From a virus: 61,126 nt of DNA. This document shows, piece after piece, positions 1-61,126 of this stretch (position 1 is its first letter; every line of letters begins with the position of its first letter). Location: the IMG/VR virus record IMGVR_UViG_3300025305_000017, positions 1 through 61,126 of that record; one strand, written 5' to 3'. Made by a program: the position numbers and the translations under genes. The notes below the pieces were generated by a model. That model saw only the letters and a program-made list of their open reading frames with translations, was not told where the DNA came from and did no database searches.

Positions 1-15
1 GGGGCGCACAGAAGG
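1..15. repeat. 15-bp terminal direct repeat, left copy
   Basis: The bases GGGGCGCACAGAAGG at 1-15 are repeated exactly at 61112-61126. The simplest reading is an assembly overlap of a circular or circularly permuted molecule. The minus-strand gene order continues sensibly across the join, from terS into the genes upstream of terL, which supports closure. Confidence 0.75.
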
Positions 16-331
16 AATCGACGGGGGGTAGGCTTTTGGGGATGGGGTGCAAAGAGGAGTTGCTATGAAACTGAGAGGATCGGGTGAGCAGAACTGCCTG
101 TGATGGCGTGGGGCGGACCCGTCGTGCCTCAGGGGGGGCCGGGGGTACCCCAGTGGCATGGGCTGGTCCCCAGCAAGTGGCCGGGGCCGTGGCGCAGGCC
201 CAACGGGTGCCGGTGCCAGCGCTGATGGCCGCTGCGTCGACCGGGCGCAGCCATAGCACCAAGCGCTGCATGGTTGCCGGGGAGCGCGCCGCAAGAAACA
301 GGGCAGGGGTAGGGGCACAAATTATTTTGTG
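1..331. other. G-rich noncoding region downstream of terS, spanning the contig join
   Basis: No convincing gene is seen here. The open frames lack ribosome sites and have shadow-like composition. The plus strand is rich in G runs (for example around 23-48 and 131-146) and is visibly more GC-rich than the flanking genes. A small inverted repeat (CACAAA/TTTGTG, about 318-333) abuts the terS stop. With 61010-61126 it forms a gap of roughly 450 bp between the exported-protein gene at 60605-60985 and terS. Next to a terminase gene it could hold the packaging site, but that is inference. The opening bases resemble the 5' end of a tmRNA but no matching 3' half is present. Confidence 0.5.
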
Positions 332-859
332 TTAGCCGGTGCCGGTCTTGTCAGAGAGCAAGCGAGCCAGCCGCTCTTCCAGTTCTGTGCGGATGGTTTC
401 GGCATCGCGGGCATCCTCAGTCACCAGCCTGTCTTGGAACAGCGAGCCGCCTTGATCCGCTAACTTTCCGATTAGTTCAAGCGCGCGGACCCTTGATGCA
501 CTGTTGCTGTCTGCACCTTTGCCAAGGGCTTCGACTTCGAGCCTAGATATAATGAACTCTAAGCGAGAGTGCGCGCAGAGCAGTGCATGTTCATCTTTCT
601 GCGTTTCCAGCGCCTGTCGCCTACTCCTAACCTTATCCTGCGAAGCCAACAAGCTAGCCTTAGTCCACACAGTCTGGTCTGTCATGTTCCCGGTATTGTA
701 GTTCGCCCGGTATGCATCGCTCAGGGACATAGGCTTGCCGTTTTCATCACGGCTCATTAGTGACCTTACAAAGCCAGCTTGCTTGGCGGTTAGCGGCACG
801 TCCCGCTGCGCGACCAAAGACCCATCGACCAGTACCAAGTGGGGTTTCTTCTTTGTCAT
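332..859 (-). CDS. terS: terminase small subunit
   Basis: A 175-residue protein, likely the DNA-recognition subunit that loads the phage genome onto the large terminase. Residues about 24-85 hold the pattern typical of small terminases: a LTAKQAGFV opening, a Ser/Asp-Ala-Tyr-Arg element and a second short helix region, as in helix-turn-helix DNA binding. The C-terminal half is charged and predicted helical, fitting oligomerisation. The ATG at 859 is preceded by GAGAGGGA, a good ribosome site. It lies upstream of terL in transcription order, across the contig join, although about 2.2 kb separate the two genes. The family is assigned from sequence style, not a database match. Confidence 0.7.
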   Translation of the reverse strand: MTKKKPHLVLVDGSLVAQRDVPLTAKQAGFVRSLMSRDENGKPMSLSDAYRANYNTGNMTDQTVWTKASLLASQDKVRSRRQALETQKDEHALLCAHSRLEFIISRLEVEALGKGADSNSASRVRALELIGKLADQGGSLFQDRLVTEDARDAETIRTELEERLARLLSDKTGTG

Positions 860-1439
860 GTCTTAGTCCCTCTCATTTATGTGATATACGTTCTCTTAGC
901 CCCAGCCAATCCTATTGGTCTGTAACTCTCCCCATCAATGGGGATACATCCGCGCCCTTAAAGCCCCGCAAGCCACTTGCTCTGCGCCGGTCCCTGCCAA
1001 CTGGTATGCATCAAGTCTCAGGCCCCTAAGGTTTCTTATGTCTCCCTCTTACACTGAAGCGTTCCCTGAGTGCAATCACTGCGTGCTTGCTAACGCCGGG
1101 CGTGATCATGGGGAACTATCCGACACAACCGGGACATAACATGTATGCCCGAATCTGTCACATGCCAAAATCGGTCACCCATTCCCGTCCCATCGACACT
1201 GCCTTGCGACAGTGACATCGCCAACCATCCATCTGCGATTGCAGGGGAGCAATCCATGCCAAGTCGGTCATTATCCTGTGGCTGCCTCAACACAGCCCAA
1301 CTGACCCATTTAACCCCTAATTCACCCTATCTAAGCACCTTACAGAAGTCGAATGCCTCTGTGAGGCTCTAGGAAGCTCACTGGTGAGCATTAGTTTTTT
1401 CTGATAGGAAGGTAGCCGAGCATACCGGCATGGCACCTC

Positions 1440-1550
1440 AGTGACGCTTACAAGGAACGTTTTTTCGGGCCACTTGTTGGGGAGTGCATATTTGTCACAC
1501 AGTATACTTAATCGTCGCTAGGTAGCTTGTATTCAACCCTAAGCGTCACT
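1440..1550. repeat. 11-bp inverted repeat with 89-bp interval
   Basis: AGTGACGCTTA at 1440-1450 is the exact reverse complement of TAAGCGTCACT at 1540-1550. The interval is noncoding. The arms could be paired protein-binding sites, for example for origin binding or looping regulation. No function is shown by the sequence alone. Confidence 0.6.
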
Positions 1551-1764
1551 ATGTCCCTTATGTCATCTTCTTGTTACGGTGACCGGCTCGCGACCGCATT
1601 CACAACGCGACCCCCGGGCGACCAAGGTGTCGCATAGGCGGGCGAAGTCAGGCGCTAGACGTGCTGACCGCTCTGACCCCGCACCCGCGATGCCCCTAAG
1701 AAGTTCGCGCCCGTGGGAGAACCCCAACCCGTCTGTCGGAATGTGCGTGTCGCAAAATGGAAAA

Positions 1765-1779
1765 AGCCCCATTCGGGGT
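1765..1779 (-). terminator. weak leftward hairpin with T-tract
   Basis: Read leftward, a CCCC-GAAT-GGGG stem is followed by CTTTTTCC, which resembles a short intrinsic terminator. The stem is only 4-5 bp and no leftward gene is evident upstream of it, so it may be incidental. Confidence 0.25.
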
Positions 1780-1862
1780 ACCTGAAAATATAGGTTCTTG
1801 TGACAAAAGATGACAAAGCCAGAAAGGTGGAAGCATTACACGCAGTGGGTAAGAAAGGACTA

Positions 1863-1882
1863 CGCTGACCTGTTGGTCAGCG
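1863..1882. repeat. 8-bp-stem inverted repeat upstream of the first early gene
   Basis: CGCTGACC (1863-1870) and GGTCAGCG (1875-1882) form a perfect stem with a TGTT loop, about 70 bases before the MoxR ATPase start. It could be an operator or part of the 5' leader. There is no T-tract, so a terminator is unlikely. Confidence 0.5.
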
Positions 1883-1948
1883 CATCCTTAAGTGCATTCA
1901 TAGTGGTGCATTTAATGATGCGTTGAGCGCATCTGAGAGAGAGAGCAA

Positions 1949-3025
1949 ATGAAAAATCTTATTTCGATGGCAGACCTACCCGATGTTATTCGGACTTCCC
2001 ATCGTATCCAAATCGATACGCCTGAAGAGGGACAGCCCCTATACGTTCGAGGCCCCATCGGCGTCGGTAAGAGCCAATGCCCAAAGCAAGTTGCCGAGGA
2101 AGACGGCACCTATTGCAAAATTGTTAACTTGGCCGACTACCAGCCCAGCGAGATCTCTGGTTGGGTCACACAGGTAGGCGACCAGATGGCGCAACTTAAA
2201 CCAAGTTGGTTCGTCGACATTCTTCGCGAGGCTGACAAGGGCCGCGCATCAATTCTGGTTCTTGAGGAATTTGGATTGTGTGATCAGGACCAACAGCGCG
2301 CCGCTGCTAAAATAGTATGCGACCGCACGGTTGCTGGGGAGCAACTGCCTCCCAACTGCCTCATCGTAGCCAACGGAAACCGACGCGAGGATCGAGTCGG
2401 AATTAGGGCAATGCCAGAGCATCTTGTGAGCCGGTTCAGCCATGTCGACGTTGAGGCTGAACTTGAACCGACCCTTGCTCACTTTGCCAAAATAGGCGTC
2501 GACCCAATCGTCAGCGGATACTTGGCGTTCTCAAAAGACTCGCTTCACCGGCATCAGCCTGATGGAACGCCGTTCCCATCTCCCCGGTCGTGGGTCGCGG
2601 TTAGCCGCATCCTCAAAGCTGGCGCGTCAAAGACAATCGAAAGTGTCTTGATCGCTGGGAGGATCGGCGTTGAAGAAGCAGCCAAGTTTATCGGCTTCCA
2701 AAATTTGGCACACTCACTGACAGTGCCGTCGAAAGTTTTCGCGTCACCCGACACTGCGCCGGTCCCCACTACCGACGATGGCGACCCAGCTATGGACGGT
2801 TGCTTTGCGATGGTCTCCGCATTGGTTGCGGCGGTCTCGACAAAGACGGCCAGCGCCTTGGGCGTTTATCTCAAGCGCTTGCCGGTCGAGCTTCACCCTG
2901 TCGCAGGGGCTGCGCTCAAGCTGCGCAACGAGGGCCTAAAGGCGGAGGGCAAGCCTCAAATAAAATCCGCTGAGATCGCTGATATCTATGTCGGAACTCA
3001 GCAGGTTCTAGCTGAGGACGATTAG
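1949..3025 (+). CDS. MoxR-type AAA+ ATPase
   Basis: A 358-residue ATPase of the MoxR/CobS-like class, which usually acts as a hexameric chaperone or remodelling motor with a VWA-domain partner. Visible motifs are Walker A GPIGVGKS (residues 35-42), Walker B ILVLEEFG (102-109) and sensor-1 IVANGNR (139-145). A Ser-Arg-Phe motif follows at about residue 160, where a finger arginine is expected. The start follows an extended purine ribosome site, GAGAGAGAG. It heads a rightward cassette whose third gene encodes the expected VWA partner. Residues from about 240 on are family-specific. Its substrate is unknown: cobaltochelatase-like maturation, protein complex assembly and host take-over are all possible. 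Confidence 0.85.
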   Translation: MKNLISMADLPDVIRTSHRIQIDTPEEGQPLYVRGPIGVGKSQCPKQVAEEDGTYCKIVNLADYQPSEISGWVTQVGDQMAQLKPSWFVDILREADKGRASILVLEEFGLCDQDQQRAAAKIVCDRTVAGEQLPPNCLIVANGNRREDRVGIRAMPEHLVSRFSHVDVEAELEPTLAHFAKIGVDPIVSGYLAFSKDSLHRHQPDGTPFPSPRSWVAVSRILKAGASKTIESVLIAGRIGVEEAAKFIGFQNLAHSLTVPSKVFASPDTAPVPTTDDGDPAMDGCFAMVSALVAAVSTKTASALGVYLKRLPVELHPVAGAALKLRNEGLKAEGKPQIKSAEIADIYVGTQQVLAEDD

Positions 3026-3057
3026 CACCTTGAAGAGGGTGTATGAATGGTACACCA

Positions 3058-3105
3058 AGCGCCCGGGGTTCATCCCCGGGCGCTGCGTATCGGGCTAGCT
3101 GCCCG
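3058..3105 (+). promoter_or_regulatory. intergenic hairpin element A, copy 1
   Basis: Two consecutive stem-loops lie between the ATPase gene and the DUF3150-like gene. Stem 1 is an 11-bp perfect GC-rich helix (3058-3068 with 3074-3084) with a 5-base loop. After six bases comes stem 2, CGGGC (3091-3095) with GCCCG (3101-3105) and loop TAGCT. The same arrangement recurs at 5603-5649, with a different stem-2 sequence that still pairs. No T-tract follows, so an RNA-level role such as processing, stability or translational control seems likelier than simple termination. Confidence 0.75.
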
Positions 3106-3154
3106 GCTGACGATTCCAACTACGGATGAAACGCTCACACAGGAGAATCACAAA

Positions 3155-4120
3155 ATGGCTAATGACATCTATGCTAAGAACGGCTTGCTTGTCGGCCTAA
3201 GCGCGAAGTGCTTGGGCTGGGAACGCAAGGATGATCACATCACCCGGGCCGTGCAAGAGCAGCACGGCGTCGGTGACGACGCTGGCGGGTGGCGCAAATG
3301 GCTGTTGCCAAAGTCACTCGTTCATGGGCCTCAAGAAATTGTCCGCAAGGCGCGCACCATTCACGAGCGCCTCACGGTTGCGTGGGGCACAAAAGGAATG
3401 CGCTACCTTCCGCTGGAACACTTCGATGTGTACACCGAAAGGTTCGAGAAACTCAAAGGCGAGTTTGACAAGGCAGTGTCCGATTTGCAGGGGAAGGTTC
3501 CCCAGTACATTGAAGATCAGAAGCAGCGCCTCTCAAACGCCAACGACGGCACTACGCTGTACCGCGAAGAAGACTATTCGCATCTCGCGAATATCGCCCC
3601 GTCGTATGATTTCATACGGAGGGTTCAAGCAGTCCCTAAAGAGGGCGACCTGATTGTCGACCTCGTTGGCGAAGAGCTAGACAAACTCAACGCCGACGCC
3701 GCTGCAACCCGCCAAGTGTCGGCGGACGCTGCCAAACTGGATCTAGCCAAGCGCCTCGCCAAGTGCGCCAAGGTTATTGACGATGCGCTCAAGGGTTTCA
3801 GCGTGACGCGCGTCAGGAAGTCGGGCGGAAAATATAAAAACGAGGCCACCCGCAACGGCGCTCCCGGCGCACGTCTCGCTGAGAGCATGATCACCAATCT
3901 GCAAGACCTCATTGAGATCGCTGATGGCTTGAACGTAACCGGCGATGCCGACTTGCGCCAAGCCATTGCCGACGTTCGCGACGGCAGCTTGGTGAAATAT
4001 GACGTTGATGATTTGCGCGACCCAACAGCGTCAGACGTTGTTGAGCAAGTGCGCTCTGATGCGTCTGACCTCGCCGCCAAGATGGCTGGGTTCATTGGGG
4101 CCGACGACCAAGGCGACTGA
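3155..4120 (+). CDS. DUF3150-like protein of the MoxR/VWA cassette
   Basis: A 321-residue soluble protein, largely helical, with charged coiled-coil-like stretches at roughly residues 85-130 and 170-215. Size, position between a MoxR ATPase and a VWA protein, and general style agree with DUF3150 as I recall it, a family without known activity. The open frame extends upstream to 3047, but that part runs through hairpin element A. The ATG at 3155 follows a good AGGAG and is preferred. It is probably a structural or adaptor subunit of the MoxR-VWA complex (inference). No catalytic motif is visible. The stop codon lies inside element B. Confidence 0.6.
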   Translation: MANDIYAKNGLLVGLSAKCLGWERKDDHITRAVQEQHGVGDDAGGWRKWLLPKSLVHGPQEIVRKARTIHERLTVAWGTKGMRYLPLEHFDVYTERFEKLKGEFDKAVSDLQGKVPQYIEDQKQRLSNANDGTTLYREEDYSHLANIAPSYDFIRRVQAVPKEGDLIVDLVGEELDKLNADAAATRQVSADAAKLDLAKRLAKCAKVIDDALKGFSVTRVRKSGGKYKNEATRNGAPGARLAESMITNLQDLIEIADGLNVTGDADLRQAIADVRDGSLVKYDVDDLRDPTASDVVEQVRSDASDLAAKMAGFIGADDQGD

Positions 4121-4165
4121 TCGCAGCGCCACTGCCCATCTAGGTCGATGGGCAGCACGGTGCGA
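4111..4165 (+). promoter_or_regulatory. intergenic hairpin element B, copy 1
   Basis: The 26 bases 4111-4136 are identical to 7052-7077, including the stop codon of the gene before each copy. They open a hairpin whose 9-bp core is CTGCCCATC (4132-4140) with GATGGGCAG (4147-4155). An outer TCGCA/TGCGA pair (4121-4125 with 4161-4165) closes it. In copy 2 the core differs by a C-to-T change that is compensated on the other arm, which supports a conserved RNA fold. Confidence 0.75.
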
Positions 4166-4189
4166 CCAAGCACCTGAGAGAGAGACAAT

Positions 4190-5593
4190 ATGAGTGGTTT
4201 AGTTGCAAAGCTAAAGTCGGGGATTGTCGACCCCGGCGCTGCCATCAAGCGCATGGTAGTAATATCCAAGATCAAGGTCTTGGTTACGCATCCCTTTACG
4301 GGATGCCGATTGCTGCGAATGAAAGTGCTTTACACAACAGCGCTTTCGACTTGCGGCGTCGACGGCACTCACTTGTTCGTTAACCCCGATTACTTTTCCA
4401 AGACACTCGACAAGCCCAAGCGCAAAGGCGTTTTGTGGCATGAAGGTGCGCATGTTTGGATGATGCACCATCTGCGTCGGGGCGACCGCGACCCTCACTT
4501 CTATAATCTGGCTGGCGATGGCGTGATTAATTATCACGCAATCAAAGAGGGTTTTGAACTGCCAGAAAATCACATTTCCTTCGCATCCTTGAGAGCGCAG
4601 GGGTATGACCTCCCTCTGAAAGACGGTGAGTACACCACTGACTCGCTTTACGATGCGCTCATTGCGCAAGGCAAGAACCCCGGCGACCAGCCCGGCAAGA
4701 ACGATGGCGGCGACGACGGCGACGACGGCAAGACCGGCGACCAGCCGGGAGAAACCGGCGACGACGGCGACGACGGCGAAGACAGCGACGACGGCGACAC
4801 TGGTGAGACGGGTGACGGCGAAGGTGCCGACACTGGCGAGACTAGTGGCGGCGAAGACAACCAAGGCGAAGATCCTTTTGAAGACGTTGGCGGCACCGGC
4901 ATTGTCATAGATGCTGAGGACGACGACGGAGAATCTTTGAAGGGTACGGAACTCGCTCAAGCGCAGCGTGAACTGGCGGGTGAGATCTTTAATGACGCGC
5001 AGAACGCAAAGAGCCGGGGAAAGTTGCCCGGGAGTATCGCAGAGTATGTAGACTCTTTGCGCGATGCCGTGATTGATTGGCGAGAGAAACTCGCGCGGTT
5101 CTTCAATCGGGGTTCCGATTTTAGAAGTGACCCCAATCGCATCGACAAAAAGGCAGCGCGCCGTGGCTTGTTTCTGTCACGCCGTGTCAAGGAAGGCACC
5201 GGCACTGTTGTCGTCGGCGTCGACACTTCAGCATCGGTGAGCCAGCGTGAGTATAAGGTGCTGATGGCGGAGCTAAAGGCCATCTGCACAGAGGCTGGCG
5301 CTCAAGAGGTTGTCGTGCTTTACGCCGACACATCGATACGGCACGTCGACATATTTGAAGACCCAAGCGAGATCGAAGAACGCGACCTTGGCCGCTACGG
5401 CGGCGGCGGCACCGACTTCCAGCCGGTCTTCGATTACGTTTACGAGAACGAGGTCGAAGTGGACACGCTGGTCTATCTGACTGACCTTGAGTGCAGACTT
5501 CCAGAGGAACCCGATTACCCCGTCCTCTGGGTCTCGACCACTGACGCCGTCGCGTCTTGGGGGGAGACCATAAAGCTAGACTCTACTGGCTGA
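4190..5593 (+). CDS. zinc metallopeptidase-like / VWA-domain protein (DUF2201-like)
   Basis: A 467-residue protein with three parts. Residues 1-160 resemble the DUF2201 metallopeptidase-like domain and contain HEGAH (84-88), an HExxH zinc motif, in VLWHEGAHVW. Residues about 165-230 are an Asp/Gly/Glu low-complexity linker built of GDDGDDG-like units. Residues about 335-467 form a VWA domain with the metal-binding MIDAS set DTSAS (345-349), a GGTDF motif near 408 and an LTDLE motif near 432. Proteins of this type act as partners or substrate adaptors of MoxR ATPases. The first two genes of the cassette supply the ATPase and the DUF3150 component. The ribosome site GAGAGAGAGA matches that of the ATPase gene. 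Confidence 0.85.
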   Translation: MSGLVAKLKSGIVDPGAAIKRMVVISKIKVLVTHPFTGCRLLRMKVLYTTALSTCGVDGTHLFVNPDYFSKTLDKPKRKGVLWHEGAHVWMMHHLRRGDRDPHFYNLAGDGVINYHAIKEGFELPENHISFASLRAQGYDLPLKDGEYTTDSLYDALIAQGKNPGDQPGKNDGGDDGDDGKTGDQPGETGDDGDDGEDSDDGDTGETGDGEGADTGETSGGEDNQGEDPFEDVGGTGIVIDAEDDDGESLKGTELAQAQRELAGEIFNDAQNAKSRGKLPGSIAEYVDSLRDAVIDWREKLARFFNRGSDFRSDPNRIDKKAARRGLFLSRRVKEGTGTVVVGVDTSASVSQREYKVLMAELKAICTEAGAQEVVVLYADTSIRHVDIFEDPSEIEERDLGRYGGGGTDFQPVFDYVYENEVEVDTLVYLTDLECRLPEEPDYPVLWVSTTDAVASWGETIKLDSTG

Positions 5594-5602
5594 CGACTAT
5601 GA

Positions 5603-5649
5603 CGCCCGGGGAGAACCCCCGGGCGCAGCGTCTGGGACTAGCGGTCCCA
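5603..5649 (+). promoter_or_regulatory. intergenic hairpin element A, copy 2
   Basis: Stem 1 is CGCCCGGGG (5603-5611) with CCCCGGGCG (5617-5625) and loop AGAAC. Stem 2 is TGGGAC (5633-5638) with GTCCCA (5644-5649) and loop TAGCG. Compared with copy 1, stem 2 has changed on both arms and still pairs, and the TAGC loop is kept. It sits just before the gene at 5695, after the VWA gene stop. Confidence 0.75.
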
Positions 5650-5694
5650 TTGACATGCGGTGAGATCCGCGAAACGCAAAGGAGGATGTATCAC

Positions 5695-6582
5695 ATGCAA
5701 GAAGGAACTAAAGATGCGTACCAAGACTTCCTAAAGATGAGGAGGACTCTTGACGCCATGCGAGGAGTGATCGGCAACGAGGCGTTCAACGCCTTCATCC
5801 GCTCACTCAAAGACGACGACTTACACTCTTGGGATCAGCGGAAGATTGTTACGGACGCGCGGCCAGACATCGCTGGTGAACTAATGATCAGCCCCATACT
5901 CGACGCGCTTAAGCGCGTGCAAGACTATCGCGCAACGCGGTCCATTGACCAACTAAGGTACAACCAAGGGCCTACGTTTACCGGGCGCTGGGAAAGTCGA
6001 CTAAACTCCGTCACCAGCGCTTTCAATAGCTGGCGCGAGAAGGTCAAGGTGTCTTTGTATTTCGGGAAGAACGCCGACGTGATCGACGGCTTGAAAGACT
6101 CGCGAGTATCAACCGCCGGTTATTATGGCAACGAGCTACGGGTAAAGATCAAAGTGAATGCGAGGATCTTTACGAAGGTCATGCCGCTTTTCAACGGCGG
6201 CGAGATCCATGCGAGAGATCACTATTCTCCCGGCGATGGCCGTGAGAGTTGGGATCACTTGCCGCAAGTCGAGAGGCTGGGAAACACCCGCACCGGAAAA
6301 TATTTCCAGTATTTAATCTACGATATTGGGGAGCCGGTGTTCGACTTTCCAAAGGATCAAGAAATTGTCCCGATGGAAAACGGCATCCGCGCGTACCCGG
6401 TTGATGTCATTGAGGTCGTCGGTCCATTAGGTGATCGCAGCCTTGACGTGTCGAAGAAGTGGCTGGCATTCATGGGCAAGCACATCAAAGAGGACACCGT
6501 CACGGCGGTACACGATTCGCCGCGACAGGCTTACAACCTCTGCCGACAACGGTTGTGCCGCGACATGGTGGCGCAGTTATGA
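5695..6582 (+). CDS. unknown protein, fourth gene of the MoxR/VWA cassette
   Basis: A 295-residue soluble protein that I do not recognise. The N-terminal third is charged and helical. The middle (about residues 115-200) looks like a mixed alpha/beta domain with several basic and aromatic positions. There is no signal peptide or membrane segment. The open frame continues upstream to 5557 through hairpin element A, but the ATG at 5695 lies nine bases after AAAGGAGG and is chosen. The ATG at 5686 abuts the same ribosome site too closely. Its 3' end overlaps the next gene by ATGA, so the two are probably translationally coupled. Confidence 0.75.
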   Translation: MQEGTKDAYQDFLKMRRTLDAMRGVIGNEAFNAFIRSLKDDDLHSWDQRKIVTDARPDIAGELMISPILDALKRVQDYRATRSIDQLRYNQGPTFTGRWESRLNSVTSAFNSWREKVKVSLYFGKNADVIDGLKDSRVSTAGYYGNELRVKIKVNARIFTKVMPLFNGGEIHARDHYSPGDGRESWDHLPQVERLGNTRTGKYFQYLIYDIGEPVFDFPKDQEIVPMENGIRAYPVDVIEVVGPLGDRSLDVSKKWLAFMGKHIKEDTVTAVHDSPRQAYNLCRQRLCRDMVAQL

Positions 6583-6788
6583 GGCGTACAATTGAGCAAT
6601 GGCGGCGGACGGCGGTGACTATCGCCGCCAACCCCGCCCACTATTCACCATCGCAGCGGTGGATAGCTTGGGCTTTTCTGTACGAGCAGAAAACCGGCCA
6701 GCCGTTGCGCCAGATTAATAGTGAGTTCCCCGGAGGGACACAGTCACCCTCTTGTCGGGGAGCGGTCCAGAACAAAGAGGAGGAGTGA
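6579..6788 (+). CDS. small protein of unknown function (69 aa)
   Basis: It starts at an ATGA overlap with the preceding stop. The N-terminal 50 residues are Trp- and Arg-rich, with a helical amphipathic pattern around EQWRRTAVTIAANPAHYSPS. The last 20 residues are low in structure and are encoded over a nested GC hairpin at about 6727-6762, which may serve the mRNA more than the protein. The next gene begins at the base after its stop. Confidence 0.55.
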   Translation: MRRTIEQWRRTAVTIAANPAHYSPSQRWIAWAFLYEQKTGQPLRQINSEFPGGTQSPSCRGAVQNKEEE

Positions 6789-7061
6789 ATGGACCCCATA
6801 CTGCATACCTTGGTGGCAATGGCCGCATTGGCCGCTGCCTATTACGGCGGTACGTTTGTAGCGAGGCGAACCGTATCGGAATATGCGTTCGACCGCATCC
6901 TCCGCAAGTTGAATGAGGACGGTTTCGTTGCCATCACCGTAGATGACGATGGCGACTATGCTCTCATTCCCATTCGGGAAATTGTCGAGACCGTGGCTAC
7001 CGATATTCGCAGGGGCGACGGTGAAATCGTGGACAGACTGTTGACTAATCTAGGCGACTGA
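6789..7061 (+). CDS. small membrane-anchored protein (90 aa)
   Basis: Residues 3-25 form one hydrophobic segment rich in Ala, suited to an inner-membrane anchor. The remaining 65 residues are acidic and soluble, with ITVDDDGDYALIPI as a likely beta region. The ribosome site AGAGGAGG directly precedes the ATG. The stop codon lies in hairpin element B copy 2. It is the last sizeable gene of the cassette. Function unknown. Confidence 0.7.
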   Translation: MDPILHTLVAMAALAAAYYGGTFVARRTVSEYAFDRILRKLNEDGFVAITVDDDGDYALIPIREIVETVATDIRRGDGEIVDRLLTNLGD

Positions 7062-7109
7062 TCGCAGCGCCACTGCCTATCGCAGACGGTAGGCAGCTTA
7101 CTTGAGCGA
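7052..7109 (+). promoter_or_regulatory. intergenic hairpin element B, copy 2
   Basis: It begins with the same 26 bases as copy 1. The core hairpin is CTGCCTATC (7073-7081) with GGTAGGCAG (7088-7096) and a 6-base loop. Relative to copy 1 one C-G pair has become T-A and one pair is a G-U wobble. A weaker outer TCGC/GCGA pair (7062-7065 with 7106-7109) may close it. It ends the rightward cassette just before the convergent minus-strand block. Confidence 0.7.
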
Positions 7110-7176
7110 GAAGGAAGTCAAGTCCCTCGTTCGAGATGGGGTTACCGTAAACATCACCGCCGACGCAGACGACTAG
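7102..7176 (+). CDS. possible 24-residue peptide
   Basis: A TTG-initiated frame directly after element B encodes a short acidic peptide ending NITADADD. There is no good ribosome site. The last bases overlap the end of the opposing gene. It could be a decayed gene remnant or a leader peptide. Confidence 0.2.
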   Translation: MSEKEVKSLVRDGVTVNITADADD

Positions 7177-7697
7177 GCGACAAGCGACGGTTGCCGGTGG
7201 CGACCGTCGCCGCCTAACTTGGCGGTAAAATATTCATCCAGAATCGCAAGCGCTCTCGCAAGTGCTGCGATATCCTTCCCTTTTATCACGCGCCGGTCCT
7301 CAAGAACCGCAGCAAGAATCACATTCTTGGCGTGATCTCCCCCCAATCTTTTGACGACCCCGATCATCTTTCCCGCATCCGCATAGGCTATCGCTTGCCG
7401 CTCGGATATGGTGTGGTGTGGTGTGGTGCAACCCCCACGTTCCCAGTTACTGCTGCCGCCGCCTATCATGCGCGCCCGAAAAAGCACTGACATGAAGTGA
7501 TCAGCGGTGTCATGTTGGTGTGGTGTGATCTTCTGTGCGAGAAGAAGCCTGTCGATCTCGCAACTGTCGACGCGCCTGATCCTGATGTCACCAGCACGGG
7601 TGGACGCTGCCTCTAAAACGAACGTGCCGTTGCCGTTGTCGAAAGGCTCAGAGATCTTTCCACCAAGATTCTTCTTTAACCCACTCGCTAACCTCAT
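7173..7697 (-). CDS. unknown protein downstream of the primase-helicase
   Basis: A 174-residue, basic, mostly helical protein. The frame is open from 7745, but the ATG at 7697 has AGGAG just upstream, within the 3' end of the primase gene that it overlaps by about 50 bases. Residues about 70-110 carry a Gly-rich segment followed by CTTPHHTI, encoded by a GTGTG pentanucleotide repeat (7409-7428). The C-terminal 60 residues form a regular helical region. There is no recognised domain. Its position suggests a replication or regulatory role, by inference only. Confidence 0.6.
   Translation of the reverse strand: MRLASGLKKNLGGKISEPFDNGNGTFVLEAASTRAGDIRIRRVDSCEIDRLLLAQKITPHQHDTADHFMSVLFRARMIGGGSSNWERGGCTTPHHTISERQAIAYADAGKMIGVVKRLGGDHAKNVILAAVLEDRRVIKGKDIAALARALAILDEYFTAKLGGDGRHRQPSLVA
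7409..7428. repeat. GTGTG pentanucleotide repeat, short copy
   Basis: About 3.6 tandem copies of the 5-base unit lie inside the gene downstream of the primase. The unit is the same as in the longer array at 9223-9256. Related short runs occur near 7515 and 12133. As the unit is not a multiple of three, gain or loss of one copy would shift the frame. Confidence 0.8.
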
Positions 7698-9456
7698 TCT
7701 TCTCCTCATAGTAACAGCCGGATGGGAGGTCGAAGTCAAGGACACGTTCTCCCTGAGATCCTAACCAACGGTAGCGCTGTTTCCAACAGATAATTTTTAC
7801 ACGCTCACGTTCTTCTTTGGTGTCATCGAAGCGTGCCACCGTGATGCCGGTGTCAGCAAAATTATACCAGTGAGCGCTCCCTGATAAATCATACCCTTTA
7901 GGAACGGGCACATTGCCTTCCTCCCTCCGCATCTTAGCGGGATGTGCAACGAACCACACATGGATATCGTGCAGCTTGGCGAACATGCGCACGTCGGTGA
8001 GCATGTCTGATATCTGCTGTGTCTCTGACTTATCTTTGTTGGGGAGTGCGATGTAGGAATAGGGGTCTATGATCAGCCCGCGCACGCCCATTCGTTGAAC
8101 AGCCGCGCCCGCTCGCTCAAGTATACTGGCAAGCGTGGCCTTCTCCCCCTCATTGTAGTCAATGAAAACAAAATGATCGGCGATGAAATCCTTGGCCTCT
8201 CTCAACGCCTGTTCGTTTAGGCGTGGTGTGGGGCCGTCGAAGAAAGGTTTGCCTGTAAACTTCTCTATCAACTGGGTTATGTGGGTTGCCGGGTCGTTCT
8301 CAAAGCTACATATCGCGAATTTCCACGACCTACTCCGTGCCAAGTTGACCATCACGGCATCCAAGAAACAACTCTTGCCACTCGACGGGATACCTGTGAC
8401 CACCGAAACATGCCCTGTCTTGACAGTGATCAGGTCATCAAGACTCGGGAAGCCCGTGCTTTCCCCGCCAACAATACCCTTACGATAGAGGTCATCGACT
8501 TCAGTTGAATAATGATCGGCGGTATTAAGGCCGCTAAGAGGATAAGGAACCGCGTCGGTGATCGCTTGCGACAGGGCTTCCGCACCGTGCTTAACCAACA
8601 CATCGTTGGCGTCCTTGCAGTCGGGAGGCCATCTTACCAGCCAGCACTTAGCCTTCCCAATTCTTCTGGCGAGTTCCTCAGCAAGTGCGTCACCTTGCGC
8701 GTCTCCGTCGGTCGCTAAAACTATTTTCTCCATGCGTCCGAATAATTCACGCGCTTCCCAAACGTAATTAAATTTCTTGTCCTCGCTTGGATCAACCCTC
8801 CTGTCCGAAAGCTTTGAAGGTGCGCCATTCGGAACAGACACTGCACTGATCTCCTGACCCGTTTCCTCGAATGCACATGTGCAGCTAAGGGCATCGATCT
8901 CTCCCTCGCAAACACACAAGGTGGTCTCACCGTTGATGCGTTGCTCACCGAAGAATGTGTGCGCGCCTCCCCCCGACTGCGTGTGGGCCTTGGCTTCCAC
9001 CGCTCTGAACTTGGTCGCATAGATTTGATCGCCCTCAAAGTAGGGGAAGCCTATGGCTGTGACCTCACGGTCAAGCTTGGGAAAGTATTTCTCGGTGGAG
9101 AACACGCCGAATTGCTGGAGAACGCTCCGTGATATGTGTCGGGTTGTTTCGAGATAAGCAAGAGGCTCATCATCCAGTGCCGCAGCCTCGGCGCGTTTGA
9201 TATCCTGAGGGGGCAGCGGGTCGTGGTGTGGTGTGGTGTGGTGTGGTGTGGTGTGGAACGGAACGCACCCGCTAATGTCACAATGGTGACAGTCGTATAC
9301 GAACCTGTCTTCCTTAATAAGTACACTTAAAACAGGCTCACGTTTGTTGCGCCCCTTCCTGCGGTGTGAGCATTCGGGGCATGTGATTCTAATGTTGGTT
9401 TCAATACGATGAGCAAACGGCTCACAGGCCGCTCTAATAGCGTCATCTAAGTGCAT
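7648..9456 (-). CDS. primase-helicase (T7 gp4/Twinkle-like)
   Basis: A 602-residue bifunctional replication protein. A zinc-binding site is formed by C26, C29, C56 and C59, as in primase zinc domains. A TOPRIM domain at about 180-290 shows the acidic motifs CVCEGEID and ATDGDAQGD plus a DANDVL element. A RecA-fold DnaB-type helicase follows, with Walker A GIPSSGKS (about 353-360), an acidic Walker B region LIIDPYSYI and an H3-like VWFVAHPAKM. It should unwind DNA and prime lagging-strand synthesis at the fork. Start: ATG at 9456 after GAGAGGAG. Oddity: a His/Thr/Pro stretch at residues about 66-78 is encoded by a 5-base tandem repeat. Confidence 0.93.
   Translation of the reverse strand: MHLDDAIRAACEPFAHRIETNIRITCPECSHRRKGRNKREPVLSVLIKEDRFVYDCHHCDISGCVPFHTTPHHTTPHHDPLPPQDIKRAEAAALDDEPLAYLETTRHISRSVLQQFGVFSTEKYFPKLDREVTAIGFPYFEGDQIYATKFRAVEAKAHTQSGGGAHTFFGEQRINGETTLCVCEGEIDALSCTCAFEETGQEISAVSVPNGAPSKLSDRRVDPSEDKKFNYVWEARELFGRMEKIVLATDGDAQGDALAEELARRIGKAKCWLVRWPPDCKDANDVLVKHGAEALSQAITDAVPYPLSGLNTADHYSTEVDDLYRKGIVGGESTGFPSLDDLITVKTGHVSVVTGIPSSGKSCFLDAVMVNLARSRSWKFAICSFENDPATHITQLIEKFTGKPFFDGPTPRLNEQALREAKDFIADHFVFIDYNEGEKATLASILERAGAAVQRMGVRGLIIDPYSYIALPNKDKSETQQISDMLTDVRMFAKLHDIHVWFVAHPAKMRREEGNVPVPKGYDLSGSAHWYNFADTGITVARFDDTKEERERVKIICWKQRYRWLGSQGERVLDFDLPSGCYYEEKNEVSEWVKEESWWKDL
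9223..9256. repeat. GTGGT pentanucleotide array in the primase gene
   Basis: Nearly seven uninterrupted copies of the unit lie in the primase-helicase coding sequence, between the zinc domain and the TOPRIM domain. They encode a HTTPHHTTPHH stretch. One unit more or less would cause a frameshift. Such arrays are prone to slippage. Confidence 0.85.
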
Positions 9457-9518
9457 GTGATACTCCTCTCTCTACCCTTGCGCCTGACTATAAGCTATGT
9501 TAGTTGTTCATTCTACTT

Positions 9519-9815
9519 CTAATCGGGGGCGGCGGGTATCCTCTCTCTCCCCACAACAATCCGCCGCTCCCCCAACCCTTCACGAATCCTTTCAAACCAG
9601 TATCGACGTTGTGCGTTGCCGCGCACCACCAGCTTTCCTACCAACCGTCGCATCTGTACTGGATCCCTCCCCACTAACTGACACACGTCATCGCAGTACT
9701 CAGTCGCGAACCACCCAACAGCCTCTGCTAGGTCACGCTTATTCTTGGCGTGGGCCACGTCCCACAAGGCAGACACCAACACCTCTCGCCACAGCTTGGC
9801 TTCAGCGGAGATCAA
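9519..9815 (-). CDS. conserved small phage protein between primase and resolvase
   Basis: A helical protein of about 98 residues with the pattern EAKLWREVLVSALWDV, then a Trp/Phe-containing helix and CDDVCQLVGRDPVQMRRLV. This style recurs in small phage replication-region proteins of unknown function. No ATG is available. The TTG at 9815, six bases after GAGG and inside the end of the resolvase gene, is my choice. A TTG at 9848 is the alternative. Confidence 0.6.
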   Translation of the reverse strand: MISAEAKLWREVLVSALWDVAHAKNKRDLAEAVGWFATEYCDDVCQLVGRDPVQMRRLVGKLVVRGNAQRRYWFERIREGLGERRIVVGRERIPAAPD

Positions 9816-10167
9816 CGCTGACCTCAACCCTCGGATCGTCCTTATCAAGCGCCCAATAAATGTGTTTCTCTTTTACTTGTCTATCATTCTGATAGACGCA
9901 CCCCTGCATGGCATCAAGCACCACTGACTCGTCAAGATCAGGACGGCGGGAAGCGTAATAAATTGTCATGGTAACAGATACATCTCCCTCCATGAGGGGA
10001 TCGCACCGTGGAACTTGGAGGCTGAAGGCTTTTAAAAATGACAGAGCTTTAGCACTTTTGATAAAGCGTGGCTTCGATTTGTGCATAACTAGTCTGCGTT
10101 GGTTGGTCTTGCTTGCAGGTTCACCGTGAGCCACAAAAGAAATAGTTGACACATCCTCTCTTTTCAT
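9802..10167 (-). CDS. RusA-type Holliday junction resolvase
   Basis: A 121-residue protein matching the RusA fold, a dimeric nuclease that cuts branched DNA during late replication and packaging. The signature is RPDLDESVVLDAMQGCVYQN followed by DRQV, where conserved Asp residues bind metal and the D-x-QV element ends the active site. N-terminal strand residues SFVAHGEPASKTNQRR also fit. Start: ATG at 10167 after GAGG. It is divergent from the nuclease gene at 10193 with only 25 bases between, so both promoters must lie within the flanking genes. Confidence 0.85.
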   Translation of the reverse strand: MKREDVSTISFVAHGEPASKTNQRRLVMHKSKPRFIKSAKALSFLKAFSLQVPRCDPLMEGDVSVTMTIYYASRRPDLDESVVLDAMQGCVYQNDRQVKEKHIYWALDKDDPRVEVSVDLR

Positions 10168-18457: not shown

Positions 18458-21400
18458 CTACCTCCCTAGCTGAAAAGCTTCCTGTCTCATAGCTGGTAGA
18501 TCCTGTACAGCCAGTAACTCATCCTGCGTAATGTCGTCAATCAAAGCCCTCTTTTCCTCACCTGACATGTCGCCTTCCATTATACTCTTTCTCTCCTCCC
18601 TGAGGTCAGCAAGTATCTGAGCAATAGCATTCACCTCTTGCTCCAAATCCAGCAACGCAGCCCTCTTGTCGGCGAACTCCTCACTCTTAACGATGGTAAG
18701 CTCACCTTTTTCCAACATATCATAAGTACCCACCGCCTGCGTCACAGCTTCCCTTAGTTGATAGAACTGTGTCACCAAACCACGGGCATCGGGGCGCGCA
18801 AAGAAGCGCCTGATAAATGGATACTCGGTAAGCTTGCGAGTCTGCGTTTCACCCAGTTCATCATCAACCGAGCGCACCAACTGATCAACCGTATCAAGCA
18901 ATACCGTACCCAGCGTACCGCCGTATCCCTTGATCATGTGATCGATCTTGATCGGAGAGTAATTGATCGCCTCCCCTAACTCACGCGCCAGTCCTGACGT
19001 TCTACTGGCATAACGATACCCCGGCTCAATGCCCTTTAGGTATTGCCCTTCGATCTCACGTCCCGTCCAGAAACTATAGTTAACGAGAGCTTCTCCTAGA
19101 GGAAGAACCGCTTGAGGTATAGGATTAAACTCGAACGTATTAACCAACCCCCTTCTCAGGGATTGCGTCACATCAAGAGGGACATCTTGCCCGAGGAACA
19201 AAGCCATTAACCTCTCAGGTATGGTCTTGAACAGGTATCCAACCTCAAACGGTATGGGTATCTTGATAGGCGGCCCGTCATATCCGGGGATCCACGACGA
19301 TGGAATGATCCAGTAGTTGTCCTTTACCTCGGGGTTTTGATTGATGTATTCCTCATCGTCATGCACCAAAGTCCAGTAAGCTGCACTGCTCATTCCTACC
19401 AGCAATGACCTCATCAGGAAGCGGCGTTTGACAATGTCGGACTCTGGTCGTGCAGCAAAGCCGGGCCTCCCCATAGACGATCTATAAAGCACGTCGAGTC
19501 CCTGTATCCTAGCGTTCAAGAAGGGCACCATGACAGCGATATTCTGAATTAAGGCAGAAGAACCCCTAGCCGAGAAGTTGATAACTTCCTGTGCCTCCCA
19601 GAAAGCCTGCACTTCATCGCCAGTCTCTTTTAATACCCTGTTGTAAACAGCAATTCTGGTAGCAGCATCTGACGCCCGCGAACCTGTGCCGGTTACATCC
19701 CATAAATACTTGAATGGGTTGCGAATAGCCCGCCTCATCTCAGAAGGATACTGATACTTCTGAAGTTCCTTTTCGATAAAGGTGGTCATCTTGGTAGGAT
19801 CGCCACCAAAATCAAACCCTGTCATCAAGCCTGCGGAAGCCAGTGCGTTAGCCGACTCATCCCCACGCACAGCACTGTACATCCCTTTCATGGTGCCAGC
19901 TAATGCACCAGTCTTGCGCCCGCTAGTAACCCATGCAGACAACGAGTCACGCAGCATGTTAGCGGCCATGAAGTCTGGTGATCTGGTGATCATCTCCCTC
20001 AGGAAACGGGCTGGCATACCAAACAGATTAACCCACGGCGGGATCCGCTGATGTTCTAAGTAGTTAAATAGCGATGAAAAAAGCAGTTGGTCTCCCACAA
20101 AGAGAGTCATAGACTTACCTTTGACTCTGAAGGTTATCGCCCCCGGTGTCCTGATCTTGGCCCTCACCGTTGTCTCAGGCTCTACCAAGACAAGGTTACG
20201 CATCGCACGCTGCACCCCGACATTCATCATGCCCGTTTGTACAGCAGCTAAAGCATTCTCGGTTAGGGTATCAAGGAATCCTCCAATGGGCATTCCGCCT
20301 TCTACTACCGACACCTCAAGATTGGGGTGCTCTTGCTTTAGTTTCTTAGCATAACCCTTTGCGACTGCCTTCTGATGAGACTCAAAGGTCGTTGGAAGAC
20401 GGGTTACTATCTCTTCTCCATTAATGGTCTCTTTGGTAACGATAGTCCATATCGTTCCCTTGCCAGAGAGAGGGGGAGGAGGCCGCGTAGTAATGCCGCT
20501 AAATACCTGCGTCTCCCCCAGCACCTCTTCATATTTTTGGTCAAGTTGCCTGTAAAACGGAACGTAATCCGCGGTCTCTGTCCATTGGTCGGCCTTCTTA
20601 CGGTCGATAACCCCTGTGTCTACTAAAAGATCCACGAAGTAGCTGTTCCACACCTGATAGTTCTTAAATATCTGATCGAAATCTAGGAAGGTATCCTGTC
20701 CCGTAGCTATTATCTTTCGCGCAATGGCATCTTCCGTTAAGGCTGGGTCACCGATTATACGTTGGATCTCAAGAGGCGTGTTGCCGTACCCTAGATACTC
20801 GATGATCTGATCCTGCGTTAAGAGCCTCTCCCTACCCTCTCTCAGCAAGCGCGCTGCCCTGCGCCCGATAGCATAGGCATGGAAAGTACGGAACCTATTG
20901 CCCTCACGCAGGGGTTCGATGATGGGTATCAAACCTGTAGGCGTACCAGCAATGGGACTAGGCGACAGAGAGCCATCGATGTTGGTTTGCATTGCATCTT
21001 TGGGAATGTTTTTAACGGATGTACCGCCATTGGCATAAACAGGGACGCCCTTGGAAAGAGCATAGGCAGTTATAGCCGTTCCCCTTCTGGCCGAACGTAA
21101 AGCCGTCCACGCAGACGACGCCGCACTCAGGAAGCTAGCGTACTTTGTATCCGACTCAGCCAAATAAACATCAGTCCGACGCGCAGGATCCCACATATCA
21201 ACAACGCTTTGACGGAACCACTTGAAAAAATCCGTGTAACTATCTAGCGGCGTGCTACCGAGCATACCAAGATTGGTTAAAACCTTGCTTCCAAGAGTCT
21301 CGTCGGTGGTTTGTGCGGCAGAAATCATACTTAAATCAACATCACCAACGCCCTCTTCCTTGTTTAAAAACGAGAAGGCCCGTGCGGCTTGGTAGGGACG

Positions 21401-24400
21401 CTTGTGCTTGTCCTTGCGGGTGTAGCCCTTGCGGCTACGCACCACCCGCTTCCTGTACTTGGGTGTGCGCAAGTCCTCGGCAATGACGTTGCGCTGACGC
21501 TCTTCCTCGAAAGCCTTTTTGCCCGCCTTGTCCTTGATAAAGGAGCGCGCTTCCTTGGAAGAGAAAATCCTACGCTGGATCTCATCCTCAAGCTCCAACG
21601 CATCGATGATGGGGTCTGCCATAGAGGCAGAGATGTTGCGCGTCTCTCCTGCAAAGAGGGCTGAGAGGTTCGCCATCTGCGGGATCGAGTCGATGATGCG
21701 GTCAAGCCTGCTACCCTCATAGCGTGATCCCACAGCAGGGTGACCCCGTACCTCAATGCGGTTGTCGCCGCTTTGTATGGTTAAGGTCGCCCGGTCAGGA
21801 CGTTGGTCGAGAGTGAGGCGCATCCCGTGGCCGCGGAGGCTGTCGTATTGGGTATCGGTTATGTCGTAGAACGGTCGAGCGGCTTTTGCTTTAGCTCCTT
21901 CTGCAACCCCTTTAGCAACTGCGCCCCTAGGTCGAACGCCCGCGCCCGCCCTTTGAGTGACCTGAACTCTTTTAACGAGTTCTTTGATTCTGCTCGCTCT
22001 TTCCGTGAGCGCTTTCTCGTAGTCTCTGACATTGTTTAAGTCCATTCCTTTTCTTACTTGGTTGAAAGCCCATAGGGCAGCTTGTGTTTCTATTGGCGTC
22101 CAACGCAATTCATTAGCCACCTTGGTGATAAGACGTTGCGCCTCTAAAACCATTCCCTCAGTCGGGCTGTCTCTATTGAAAAGCAATTGAGCGATGTGCC
22201 GGTCAACAACCACCGCTTCATCCGCATCGCGCATGGCCTGTATCATGTCGGGTATTTTCTTGCCCGCAAAATAACGCGCTCCGCCGCCCGGTAACTCAGT
22301 AGGTGGCTTACCAGCCCTTTCCCGAAGAGTTCCCTCCCTAGATGGGAGCCTTCCCATGAGACGATTGATGTTATCTACCACCGGATCCAATAAGAGCTTC
22401 GGTGTAGCAGTTTTGCTAAGAATCCCAAGAGGGTCGCCGGTCTTGATAGCTTCATAAACTACCAGCGCCAGATCAATGTTACGATCAATCCGCTTCTGCT
22501 GGCTGGTGATGGATATGATGTCGTTGAAAAGCTGCATGTCATCACCAAATAGCTCATGCAGAATAGGACGATGGCGCTCATACCAGTCTCGATAATTTCT
22601 TGCTGACTTGGCGTCCTTAATAAGCTGAGTAAAGGTGCGCCTAGATGTAGGCGCTCTGGGCTTACGAGGTAAGACAGGGTACTCTCCTAGCTGTACGGCA
22701 CCCGCAACCATGCGCCGTGCTTCCTTAACCTTGTTGGCTTCATCAGCAAGGATGGCGCGCACTTCACCGGGGTCTACACCGGGAGTATCTTCGGTGATCA
22801 CACCGCTCAAGACATCGTTCTCGAATGCCATCTGGCGGATACGCATGTCTACTTGAGAGGGGCGTAGTAGTTCATCTACTGGAGAAGGACGTAGCGGCTC
22901 AAGAATAAACCGTGGAGTTTCAACTGTAGCAAACTCAGTGTCTAGTGATTGTAAATTAGCCAAGAACTTATTAACAGCAGCGGCACTATCAGACGCTACA
23001 TATCCCTTGAAGTTACCGCTGTCCCAGAACTGAGCTACCGTTTCAAAATTATCTACGAGGATATCTTCAGTTGCTTCCTCGGAGATCATGTTCTTGTGCA
23101 TACCCTCCAGCGTTTCTCGGCTCTTCGCGGTCATCTCTTTCACGCTATAATAGCGTGACTTGAACTTATTTTTCTTTGCCTCCTTCTGATCCCACGCTGG
23201 ACGAGCAGCCATCCCGTCCTTCTCGAATACTTTTTCTTCAATGATGACCAAGCCGTTCTTTTTAGCCAGTTCCTTCATGCGTTTGATTTGAGGCTCACGG
23301 TCAGGAGAAATGAATTGGAATACCATAGCCTCATGGACAACATCATATTTTTTAGGGGGCTGGAAGTAGTAGATAGGAGTGCCATCATCCTCTGCCCACG
23401 CGAGAGTTCCTTCCTGCTCGCGTGATCCAAAGGCTTCTAATTTATAGTCAGAACCGGGAACTGGATCTTTCTGAAAAACCTTAGCCATTTCTATATTGGG
23501 ATCAATGCCAGTCGTTTTGATAGCACCCCCAGATAGAGATGTGATGGTTTTAATTAAAGCCCCTTCCGATGCCCCAACATCCAACATGGTGGAACCGTCC
23601 CCGTATGTGTTGACGATAGCCTCTGCCACAGCCAACTGCACTTCCCCAAAACCGGGAATGCTGGTCTTTATGTGATGCTCGAAATTACCCTTCCACTTAT
23701 CATACAGAGCCGGAACGCCAAAGTAATCGGTAAGACCAATGACTGGAATATATGCGTTACCCGTAGAGGGACGATGTTTGACTCCCAGAGTCGCTGCTGT
23801 AAAAAAATCTGTGTAATCCCTACCAGTTCCGGTCATCACCCGCGCCATCTTGGTCACGGCAGGTTTCTTTAGCTCTAGCTTAGGCATCGTTGGAGGAGAT
23901 CCCACCATCGACCGCGCCATCTTTGGCTTCTTTGTGCCCTTGGCAAGGAACGCATTTACTGAAGCTTCTATAGCTTCTGGAGAAAGGTCACCGAACTGAT
24001 ATTCCCCTAGCGCCTCCATCTTTGTCAGCGCCTCTACCTTCCTTTGGGTAGCTTTGGGTAGCACAGGGTGTGCCGTCTCAAGATAATAGAAAGGCCCTGC
24101 CTCTAAAGTGTCGAGAGCGAGACGTTGGAGACCGCCCCTATGTGCGGGCATACCCGGCATCTCCTCGGGAACGACAAGATCGAACCAACCTCTGATGGGA
24201 TGTGTAGATGCAGGATCATTCCACTCGATCCCTATCTTGGTCGGGGAAGCTATCCTCATCTTCTCCCCTTGATCTATGGTTATAGCAGGGTTGTTCCTCG
24301 GAGCGCCTTTCTCACGGTTCCAATAAGCATCCAACAATGCAGCCACACCCTGCGTTGCATTCTTATAGGGAGTGAAGGCAGCAAATTCCTCGTCGTGCTC

Positions 24401-60985: not shown

Positions 60986-61009
60986 GTGAACTCCTCGGTA
61001 CATGGTACC
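60858..61009. repeat. cluster of GGTACC palindromes
   Basis: Six GGTACC sites (60858, 60867, 60876, 60936, 60947, 61004) and two GGTACA variants (60888, 60997) lie within 152 bases. Three are spaced exactly nine bases apart. They cover the 5' part and leader of the exported-protein gene. Confidence 0.85.
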
Positions 61010-61020
61010 ATTTTATTTTT

Positions 61021-61034
61021 AGGGGGTGCCCCCT
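61021..61034. repeat. G/C hairpin in the leader of the exported-protein gene
   Basis: AGGGGG and CCCCCT flank a two-base centre. A T-rich stretch (61010-61020) precedes it on the plus strand, which is an A-rich stretch in the direction of the genes, so it is not a terminator. It may be part of a promoter or operator. Confidence 0.4.
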
Positions 61035-61111
61035 TTGTGAAACTATCCAGAAGATAGCAAAATGGGGGGTGGGGGTCAAGTAACAGAGAAGATGTAAGAA
61101 GATAAGTATGG

Positions 61112-61126
61112 GGGGCGCACAGAAGG
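61112..61126. repeat. 15-bp terminal direct repeat, right copy
   Basis: Exact copy of positions 1-15. It lies in the G-rich noncoding stretch after a G6 run. The duplicated bases should be counted once if the genome is circularised, giving a unit of 61,111 bp. Confidence 0.75.

Follow-up and report, generated by a model that had tools for sequence, protein, structure and literature searches.

The longest gene-free stretch of this phage genome, at 860–1948, is probably a divergent control region, set between a leftward gene set led by terS and a rightward operon that encodes a MoxR-like ATPase and a VWA-like protein and would be preceded by a structured leader. Comparisons with related virus contigs indicate that the stretch is under constraint, and two short elements further along the operon look like self-cutting ribozymes of the hammerhead type. 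If these readings are true, a kilobase of gene-free phage DNA is more constrained than the genes adjoining it, and relatives of abundant marine phages process their own operon with built-in ribozymes.

The window, i.e., the whole stretch of DNA that was analysed, is a single virus record of 61126 bases, the first 15 of which are the same as the last 15. Because its ends are identical and contigs of three relatives (3300028039_000038, which supplies loci L003 and L005; L004; and L006) run across the circular join, we treated the window as complete and its map as circular (about 61.1 kb). Open reading frames cover 92% of the genome (greedy set, 57 ORFs), and no tRNA was found. Counting ORFs of about 80 aa or more, the gap at 860–1948 (1089 nt) is the largest ORF-free stretch, the runner-up being 586 nt, so that the gene-free kilobase to which an earlier note on this DNA had drawn attention is confirmed. 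Because the neighbour on the left lies on the minus strand and that on the right on the plus strand, the genes flanking the gap diverge.

The product of the left gene is weakly similar to small subunits of terminases: it matches those annotated in Nitratiruptor phages NrS-1/2/3 at 36–37% over 46–47% (tblastn, E = 5e-8), and it has no PHROGs or Pfam match. The leftward set that begins with this gene also includes terL and portal. The stretch that separates terS from the following leftward gene spans the circular join (1–331 and 61004–61126) and contains an 83-aa ORF with a GTG start on the plus strand (84–335). Rightward, the ATPase gene is followed by a second gene, with homology from about 3155, and then by one whose product has DUF2201 and VWA-like domains (Table 1).

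Table 1. Positions of genes, repeats, hairpins and ribozyme-like elements in the window.
Feature	Position	Strand	Basis or remark
Probable divergent noncoding control region, largest ORF-free gap	860..1948		ORF map and conservation
terS-like gene, 175 aa, first of leftward set	332..859	-	tblastn match to Nitratiruptor phages
Perfect 7-bp hairpin, 69 nt before terS	929..944		position shared, stem sequence differs among lineages
Block 97–100% identical to L002	1408..1507		sliding identity
Inverted repeat, left arm	1440..1450	+	exact 11 bp; retained in L002
Inverted repeat, right arm	1540..1550	-	exact 11 bp; lost in L002
GC-rich block, 90–100% identical to L002	1568..1726		local RNA folding not above chance
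Three successive hairpins before ATPase ribosome site	1855..1936	+	fold prediction; same fold in L002
MoxR-like AAA+ ATPase gene	1949..3025	+	phrog_1297 ATPase, 3.8e-54
11-bp GC hairpin directly before ribozyme-like element	3058..3084	+	fold
Type III hammerhead-like element, after ATPase	3085..3134	+	predicted cleavage after 3089
Intercistronic hairpin element	4111..4180	+	z -5.52; first 46 nt recur at 7052–7097
Gene with DUF2201 metallopeptidase-like and VWA-like domains	4190..5593	+	phrog_1314, labelled 'HNH endonuclease'
GC hairpin directly before second ribozyme-like element	5600..5627	+	fold
Hammerhead-like element, core UUGACAU, after VWA gene	5628..5677	+	predicted cleavage after 5632 if active
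Second copy of 4111–4156 element	7052..7097	+	46 nt, 85% identical; folds, z -2.82

The order terS, gap, ATPase, with the two genes diverging, occurs in 15 contigs: the window, L005, L002 (with L007; contig 3300003690_000189), L013, L014, L015, L018, L020, L021, L093 and L100, and the more distant L030, L033, L055 and L063. It is not universal: terS is matched in L027 and L059, yet the sequence upstream of it, at least 2.4 kb in each, shows no match to the ATPase. In the 11 contigs with a TerS that shares 70% identity or more with the window's, the gap measures about 760 to 1400 nt, that of L013 being longer; L013 has two extra small ORFs (1985–2386 and 2388–2582) between leader and ATPase. 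Because the gaps of L030 and L033 (1.9–2.1 kb) contain ORFs of up to 245 aa, and those of L055 and L063 one ORF each (129 and 95 aa), these four are not simply gene-free. Only L005 and L002 cover the whole of the window's gap; L004 covers 1000 nt of it and L006 120 nt. (L006 1–107 tracks the gap as far as window position 980, beyond which it resembles window 27340–27420, through either an assembly chimera or a rearrangement.) Scans with two 20-mers from the gap retrieved no further virus contig. As for a stretch shared with bacterial genomes, a candidate that we rejected, there was one exact 20-mer in a Xanthobacteraceae MAG and otherwise similarity at chance level.

Gap identity exceeds the four-fold-site identity of every flanking gene measured in nine of ten pairs, the tenth (L018/L093) having identical gaps, as do L014 and L015 (100% over 820 nt); the ten pairs are partly non-independent, TerS four-fold sites enter only outside the two L002 pairs, and the identities exclude alignment columns with gaps, an omission that favours distant pairs (651 such columns in L013/L021). 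The gap is 97% identical between the window and L005, versus 82% for four-fold sites in the ATPase gene and 90% for those in TerS. For the two pairs with L002, only the ATPase gene is compared: window/L002 has 87% in the gap against 36%, and L005/L002 87% against 31%. The excess recurs in other lineages, with gap identities of 91% for L018/L020 (four-fold sites 75 and 74%), 83% for L018/L100 (62 and 78%), 82% for L020/L100 (57 and 76%), 79% for L013/L021 (62 and 57%), 66% for L014/L018 (40 and 38%) and 69% for L014/L020 (36 and 38%). Judged by these alignments, the gap is under constraint.

The similarity is unevenly spread. Between the window and L002, sliding identity (40-column steps) is mostly 82–100% along the gap, with low patches at about 1161–1307, 1368–1427 and 1488–1567 and values of 75–82% in steps between 1727 and 1885; it is 100% before the ATPase start codon and falls to 45% at 1966–2005, just past it. 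L002 is a mosaic, in that a separate 4-kb segment is 95.5% identical to the window, so recombination may contribute to the similarity of these two gaps. That recent recombination accounts for it entirely, with no special constraint, we consider improbable: within the gap, blocks of 95–100% identity alternate with patches of 32–75%, the drop coincides with the ATPase start codon, and the excess over four-fold sites is found again in lineage pairs other than those with L002. The gap does hold five small ORFs of 67–75 aa, but indels of 1 nt and 13 nt between the window and L002 break the reading frames, and the four ORFs scanned against PHROGs (that at 1090–1293 was left out) had no match; we therefore rejected a small protein gene, which is very improbable.

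Several hairpins had been reported in the gap, and this holds, the best supported being that near terS and the group of three near the ATPase gene. A perfect 7-bp hairpin with a loop of 2–3 nt lies within 150 nt of terS in each of the ten gaps whose terS side is covered (window, L005, L002, L013, L014, L015, L018, L020, L021 and L100; L091 ends before terS and was left out). These hairpins have four different stems and stand 45–69 nt from the start codon. Such a hairpin occurs in 8 of 305 200-nt windows over the whole of our window, in 2/67, 2/40, 2/60 and 4/64 over other whole loci, and, when the upstream 200 nt are shuffled 2000 times, in 23 to 165 of the shuffled versions. Among 11 distant loci in which the terS start could be placed (TerS 34–43% identical; L053 gave no start), two had the hairpin, representing one sequence. 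A MAFFT alignment of the hairpins was set aside because it misplaced the loops.

Packaging sites are commonly located directly before terS, and the terS side of the gap, hairpin included, might be such a site (cos or pac). Its position and the recurrence of the hairpin in ten of ten gaps with four different stems would suit a packaging site; the contig ends of relatives, however, are scattered (window 1859, 2452 and about 252), and the hairpin might just as well belong to the leader of the terS transcript, so that we regard packaging as rather unlikely. The hairpin also resembles the hairpin promoters of N4 type, which are used by a virion RNA polymerase. This candidate was rejected because the giant protein of the window (4069 aa) has no RNA polymerase match in Pfam, PHROGs or PDB sequences. 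In the control-region reading, the left part of the gap would be a terS leader with a conserved hairpin.

The right part of the gap would contain the start of the rightward transcript, with a noncoding leader of about 400 nt whose last 90 nt would form three hairpins before the ribosome site of the ATPase gene. The fold of 1855–1950 has a z of -4.08 in the window and -3.84 in L002, and sliding z near the ATPase gene reaches -5.0 on the plus strand versus -1.8 on the minus strand, 1861–1980 being the strongest plus-strand folding signal of the gap. Values of -4 or below are not confined to the gap: among 117 sliding windows over 301–7380 there are six, three of which fall in ORFs (3181–3300, 4261–4380 and 6601–6720). 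The whole leader (1513–1948) has z -3.0, a value as low as which was reached by none of 100 shuffles. L002 has the same three stems, and its first loop reads AACA in place of TGTT, its reverse complement, a change that a flip of the hairpin could have produced. One C-G pair of the hairpin at 1766–1779 is U-A in L002. The consensus fold of the leader has double changes in 2 of 112 predicted pairs and is drawn from three sequences, so these paired changes are weak evidence. A long closing helix in the predicted fold (1561–1569 with 1807–1815) was rejected: L005 disrupts one of its pairs and L002 several, and the consensus fold prefers a local hairpin. The conserved GC-rich block at 1568–1726 shows no local RNA folding signal and may therefore act as DNA. 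Rfam yielded no family in the window at gathering score, and only chance-level matches in the gaps of the window and L002 at E ≤ 10. Elsewhere in the operon, window 4110–4185, around the first copy of the intercistronic hairpin element, is matched by L002 5904–5983 at 82%.

The earlier note had placed early promoters where transcription diverges. Gene order, noncoding conservation and the structured end of the leader all argue for a divergent control region, but a consensus rightward promoter is missing from the gap of the window: a sigma-70 scan of 300–3300 gave a single site, directed leftward (1816–1787), where 2.0 are expected by chance, and none directed rightward in the gap. There is a TATACT at 1503–1508 with no matching -35. 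In seven relatives (L013, L014, L015, L018, L020, L021 and L100), two hexamers of the TTG/TTT type, separated by a spacer of 17 nt and with 8–9 of 12 matches uncorrected for chance, form a candidate pair 282–343 nt before the ATPase gene (894 nt in L013, which has the two extra ORFs); L005 and L002 have a weaker pair at 457 nt, and the window has none. Promoters, start sites and transcription of the leader are what we infer. A candidate intrinsic terminator at 1376–1403 was rejected, L002 having neither its stem nor its T-run.

The exact 11-bp inverted repeat described earlier is present. It is not very unusual: among 1000 dinucleotide shuffles of the gap, 19 produce a pair of 11-mers at most 100 nt apart and 92 a pair at any distance, and of 56 equally long genome windows two have a pair within 100 nt. 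Conservation divides the two arms: the left is retained in both L005 and L002, and the right is retained in L005, whose gap is 97% identical anyway, but reads TAATCATCCCC in place of TAAGCGTCACT in L002. Because the right arm is missing from L002, the repeat was dropped as a key element, and a function for it is not supported by these comparisons.

The earlier note had ranked the gap the best candidate for the replication origin and for early promoters. An origin here, whether as the whole gap or within it, and perhaps alongside promoters, we think possible but doubtful. The gap is the longest noncoding stretch and strongly constrained, and homologous gaps contain DnaA boxes, TTATNCACA being found twice each in L018 and L020 and once each in L014 and L015. 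The boxes of the form TTATCCACA make a tandem pair in L018 and L020 (also L100 and L093) and occur singly in L014/L015; the members of the pair are 14 nt apart (L018 2742–2764; L020 2739–2761). By our estimate, such 9-mers are about as frequent over all loci as expected from equal base use, and the boxes of the relatives are therefore only suggestive. They occur in two of four gap lineages, and the window's own gap has no TTATNCACA, with nothing within one mismatch of TTATCCACA anywhere in 1–10000. Nor is there a family of direct repeats with three or more copies, 700–2200 having only two repeats of 10 nt, each in two copies. The GC skew is equivocal: the raw cumulative curve has its minimum close to the gap on the circle, at 60709 (-2080), changing by about +95 by position 501 and standing at -2076 at 1751 on the second lap, but the detrended minimum is at 55452 and skew tracks gene strand. 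Finally, no initiator gene is among the annotated neighbours, the primase/helicase lying at 7648–9456. We prefer to regard the gap as a divergent control region.

No hammerhead was detected within 860–1948 by a relaxed descriptor, by Rfam at E ≤ 10, or by a model, R1, built from six other type III elements and run without filters; the two hammerhead-like elements of the window lie downstream, each 3' of a strong GC hairpin. The first (3085–3134) has three helices, with stems of 6, 3 and 4 bp, around CUGANGA and GAAA, the first pair of stem II being U-U. Compared with its L002 counterpart, 13 of 13 pairs are kept in both, with four double changes, a result from two sequences that 32 of 500 shuffles reach. 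R1 gives it 16.2 bits (E = 1.4e-4 over 860–3200), the next match being 11.5 bits within the ATPase gene; Rfam does not list it at E ≤ 10. The L002 counterpart (2153–2208) sits, oddly, in an open frame of 674 aa that joins the ATPase gene to the one after it, and the window differs in that its ATPase stops at 3025.

The second element (5628–5677) departs from the conserved core CUGANGA: it reads UUGACAU, and UUGAUGU in L002, so that C3 and A9 are changed in both and G8 too in the window. All 15 pairs are retained relative to L002 4526–4577, with three double changes, as in 53 of 500 shuffles. R1 gives it 20 bits in 5400–5900 (next best 4.2), and Rfam does not list it at gathering score. The L002 counterparts of the first and second elements receive 23.3 and 29.9 bits, the next best match being 9.7. 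With filters off, R1 thus places all four elements first or second in their stretch; with filters on (21 sources, E ≤ 10), L002 4526 is the only one of the four listed. The variant core was seen only in the window and L002 among the sequences compared (four rows, three of them from the L002 contig) and never in 3.0 Mb of shuffles, and the altered core (U3-A8, U9) has been retained over large divergence in the window's lineage. To judge by fold and paired changes, both elements look like self-cutting ribozymes that punctuate the rightward operon; they would cut the transcript between the ATPase and the second gene, and perhaps also after the VWA gene.

Hammerheads were also found among the relatives. 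A descriptor of three helices with CUGANGA and GAA, run on 1.00 Mb of window and loci, gave 26 hit rows, or 19 distinct elements once same-contig loci and the double typing of L046 are merged, versus one hit in 2.00 Mb of order-1 shuffles. In Rfam, L062 matches Hammerhead_II above gathering, the sole match in a gathering-score scan of 11 loci, and L018 and L100 match Hammerhead_3 below gathering (E = 2.8e-6 and 1.9e-6). Nine of the 15 contigs with the divergent order have a hammerhead between terS and the ATPase start: in six close relatives (L014, L015, L018, L093, L020 and L100) it stands directly before the ATPase gene in the homologous gap, and the others are L030 (three), L033 and L055. 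It is absent there from the window, L005, L002, L013, L021 and L063, the last having one just after the ATPase gene; L091 has a hammerhead in the gap, and its contig ends before terS. Clusters of three hits on one strand within 1.5 kb occur at L030 2017–3478 (types I and III) and L075 1046–2493 (types II and III).

The gaps of L100 and L018 agree at both ends, with 92% identity in the first 625 nt and 96% in the final 69 columns of the alignment, where the hammerhead lies; the middle 154–174 nt have no significant similarity, and the inserts between candidate promoter and hammerhead match no Rfam family at E ≤ 5. A conserved fold of the L018-type leader RNA was weak and was rejected (double changes in 5 of 37 pairs; the single fold of L018 is no better than shuffles). 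One tentative explanation, for which we have limited confidence, is that the slot before the ATPase gene is an RNA cassette, in which a promoter is followed by a noncoding RNA that can be exchanged and by a hammerhead that releases it, the window's lineage having a conserved leader instead and ribozymes at the next junctions. In the relatives, the leader RNAs that precede the ribozymes are candidates for phage noncoding RNAs, with no Rfam match.

By TerL and portal, 023Pt_psg01 and the pelagiphages HTVC027P and HTVC023P are among the closest named relatives. With HTVC023P-type pelagiphages the window shares TerL at 54–58% and portal at 41–43% amino acid identity and a GroES gene. Terminase, GroES and DNA polymerase are named among the core genes of that type (PMC9599517); the window has the first two but differs in the third, the Pfam DNA polymerase A model having no match in it. 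The main text of PMC9599517 mentions no ribozyme, hammerhead, intergenic, noncoding or origin-of-replication feature. We found no hammerhead in the 34–41 kb part of each of HTVC027P, HTVC023P, 023Pt_psg01, DSL-LC04 and Pag-Yong1, and in the four of these five with annotated terS no annotated ATPase adjoins it. The ATPase is of the N4 gp24 type, matching phrog_1297 and the 'N4 gp24-like protein' of LUZ7, a feature shared with N4-like phages; the window differs from them in that no virion RNA polymerase was found, its giant protein (18458–30667, minus strand) matching LPD38 near the C-terminus. The same protein has a tRNA-methyltransferase PHROG match (3.5e-16) and a weak DarB-like match.

Our literature search returned no paper joining hammerhead ribozyme, prophage and terminase. 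Hammerheads that flank genes are nevertheless described in prophages (Perreault et al. 2011, PMC3088659), where, in the passages that concern them, several lie close together around single genes or short phage gene blocks, as here, and are thought to split long phage transcripts into gene-length mRNAs. Among the natural variants given there are U3-A8 in place of C3-G8 and a U10.1-U11.1 mismatch, and we see the former at 5628–5677 and the latter at 3085–3134. Given these variants and the gene-flanking hammerheads of prophages, the arrangement is already known in kind. What sets the window apart from those prophages is the setting, in that its operon encodes a MoxR-like ATPase and a VWA protein in a pelagiphage-related phage and each copy follows a GC hairpin, and the core of the 5628 element, in which U replaces A9, a change absent from that paper's passages on variants.
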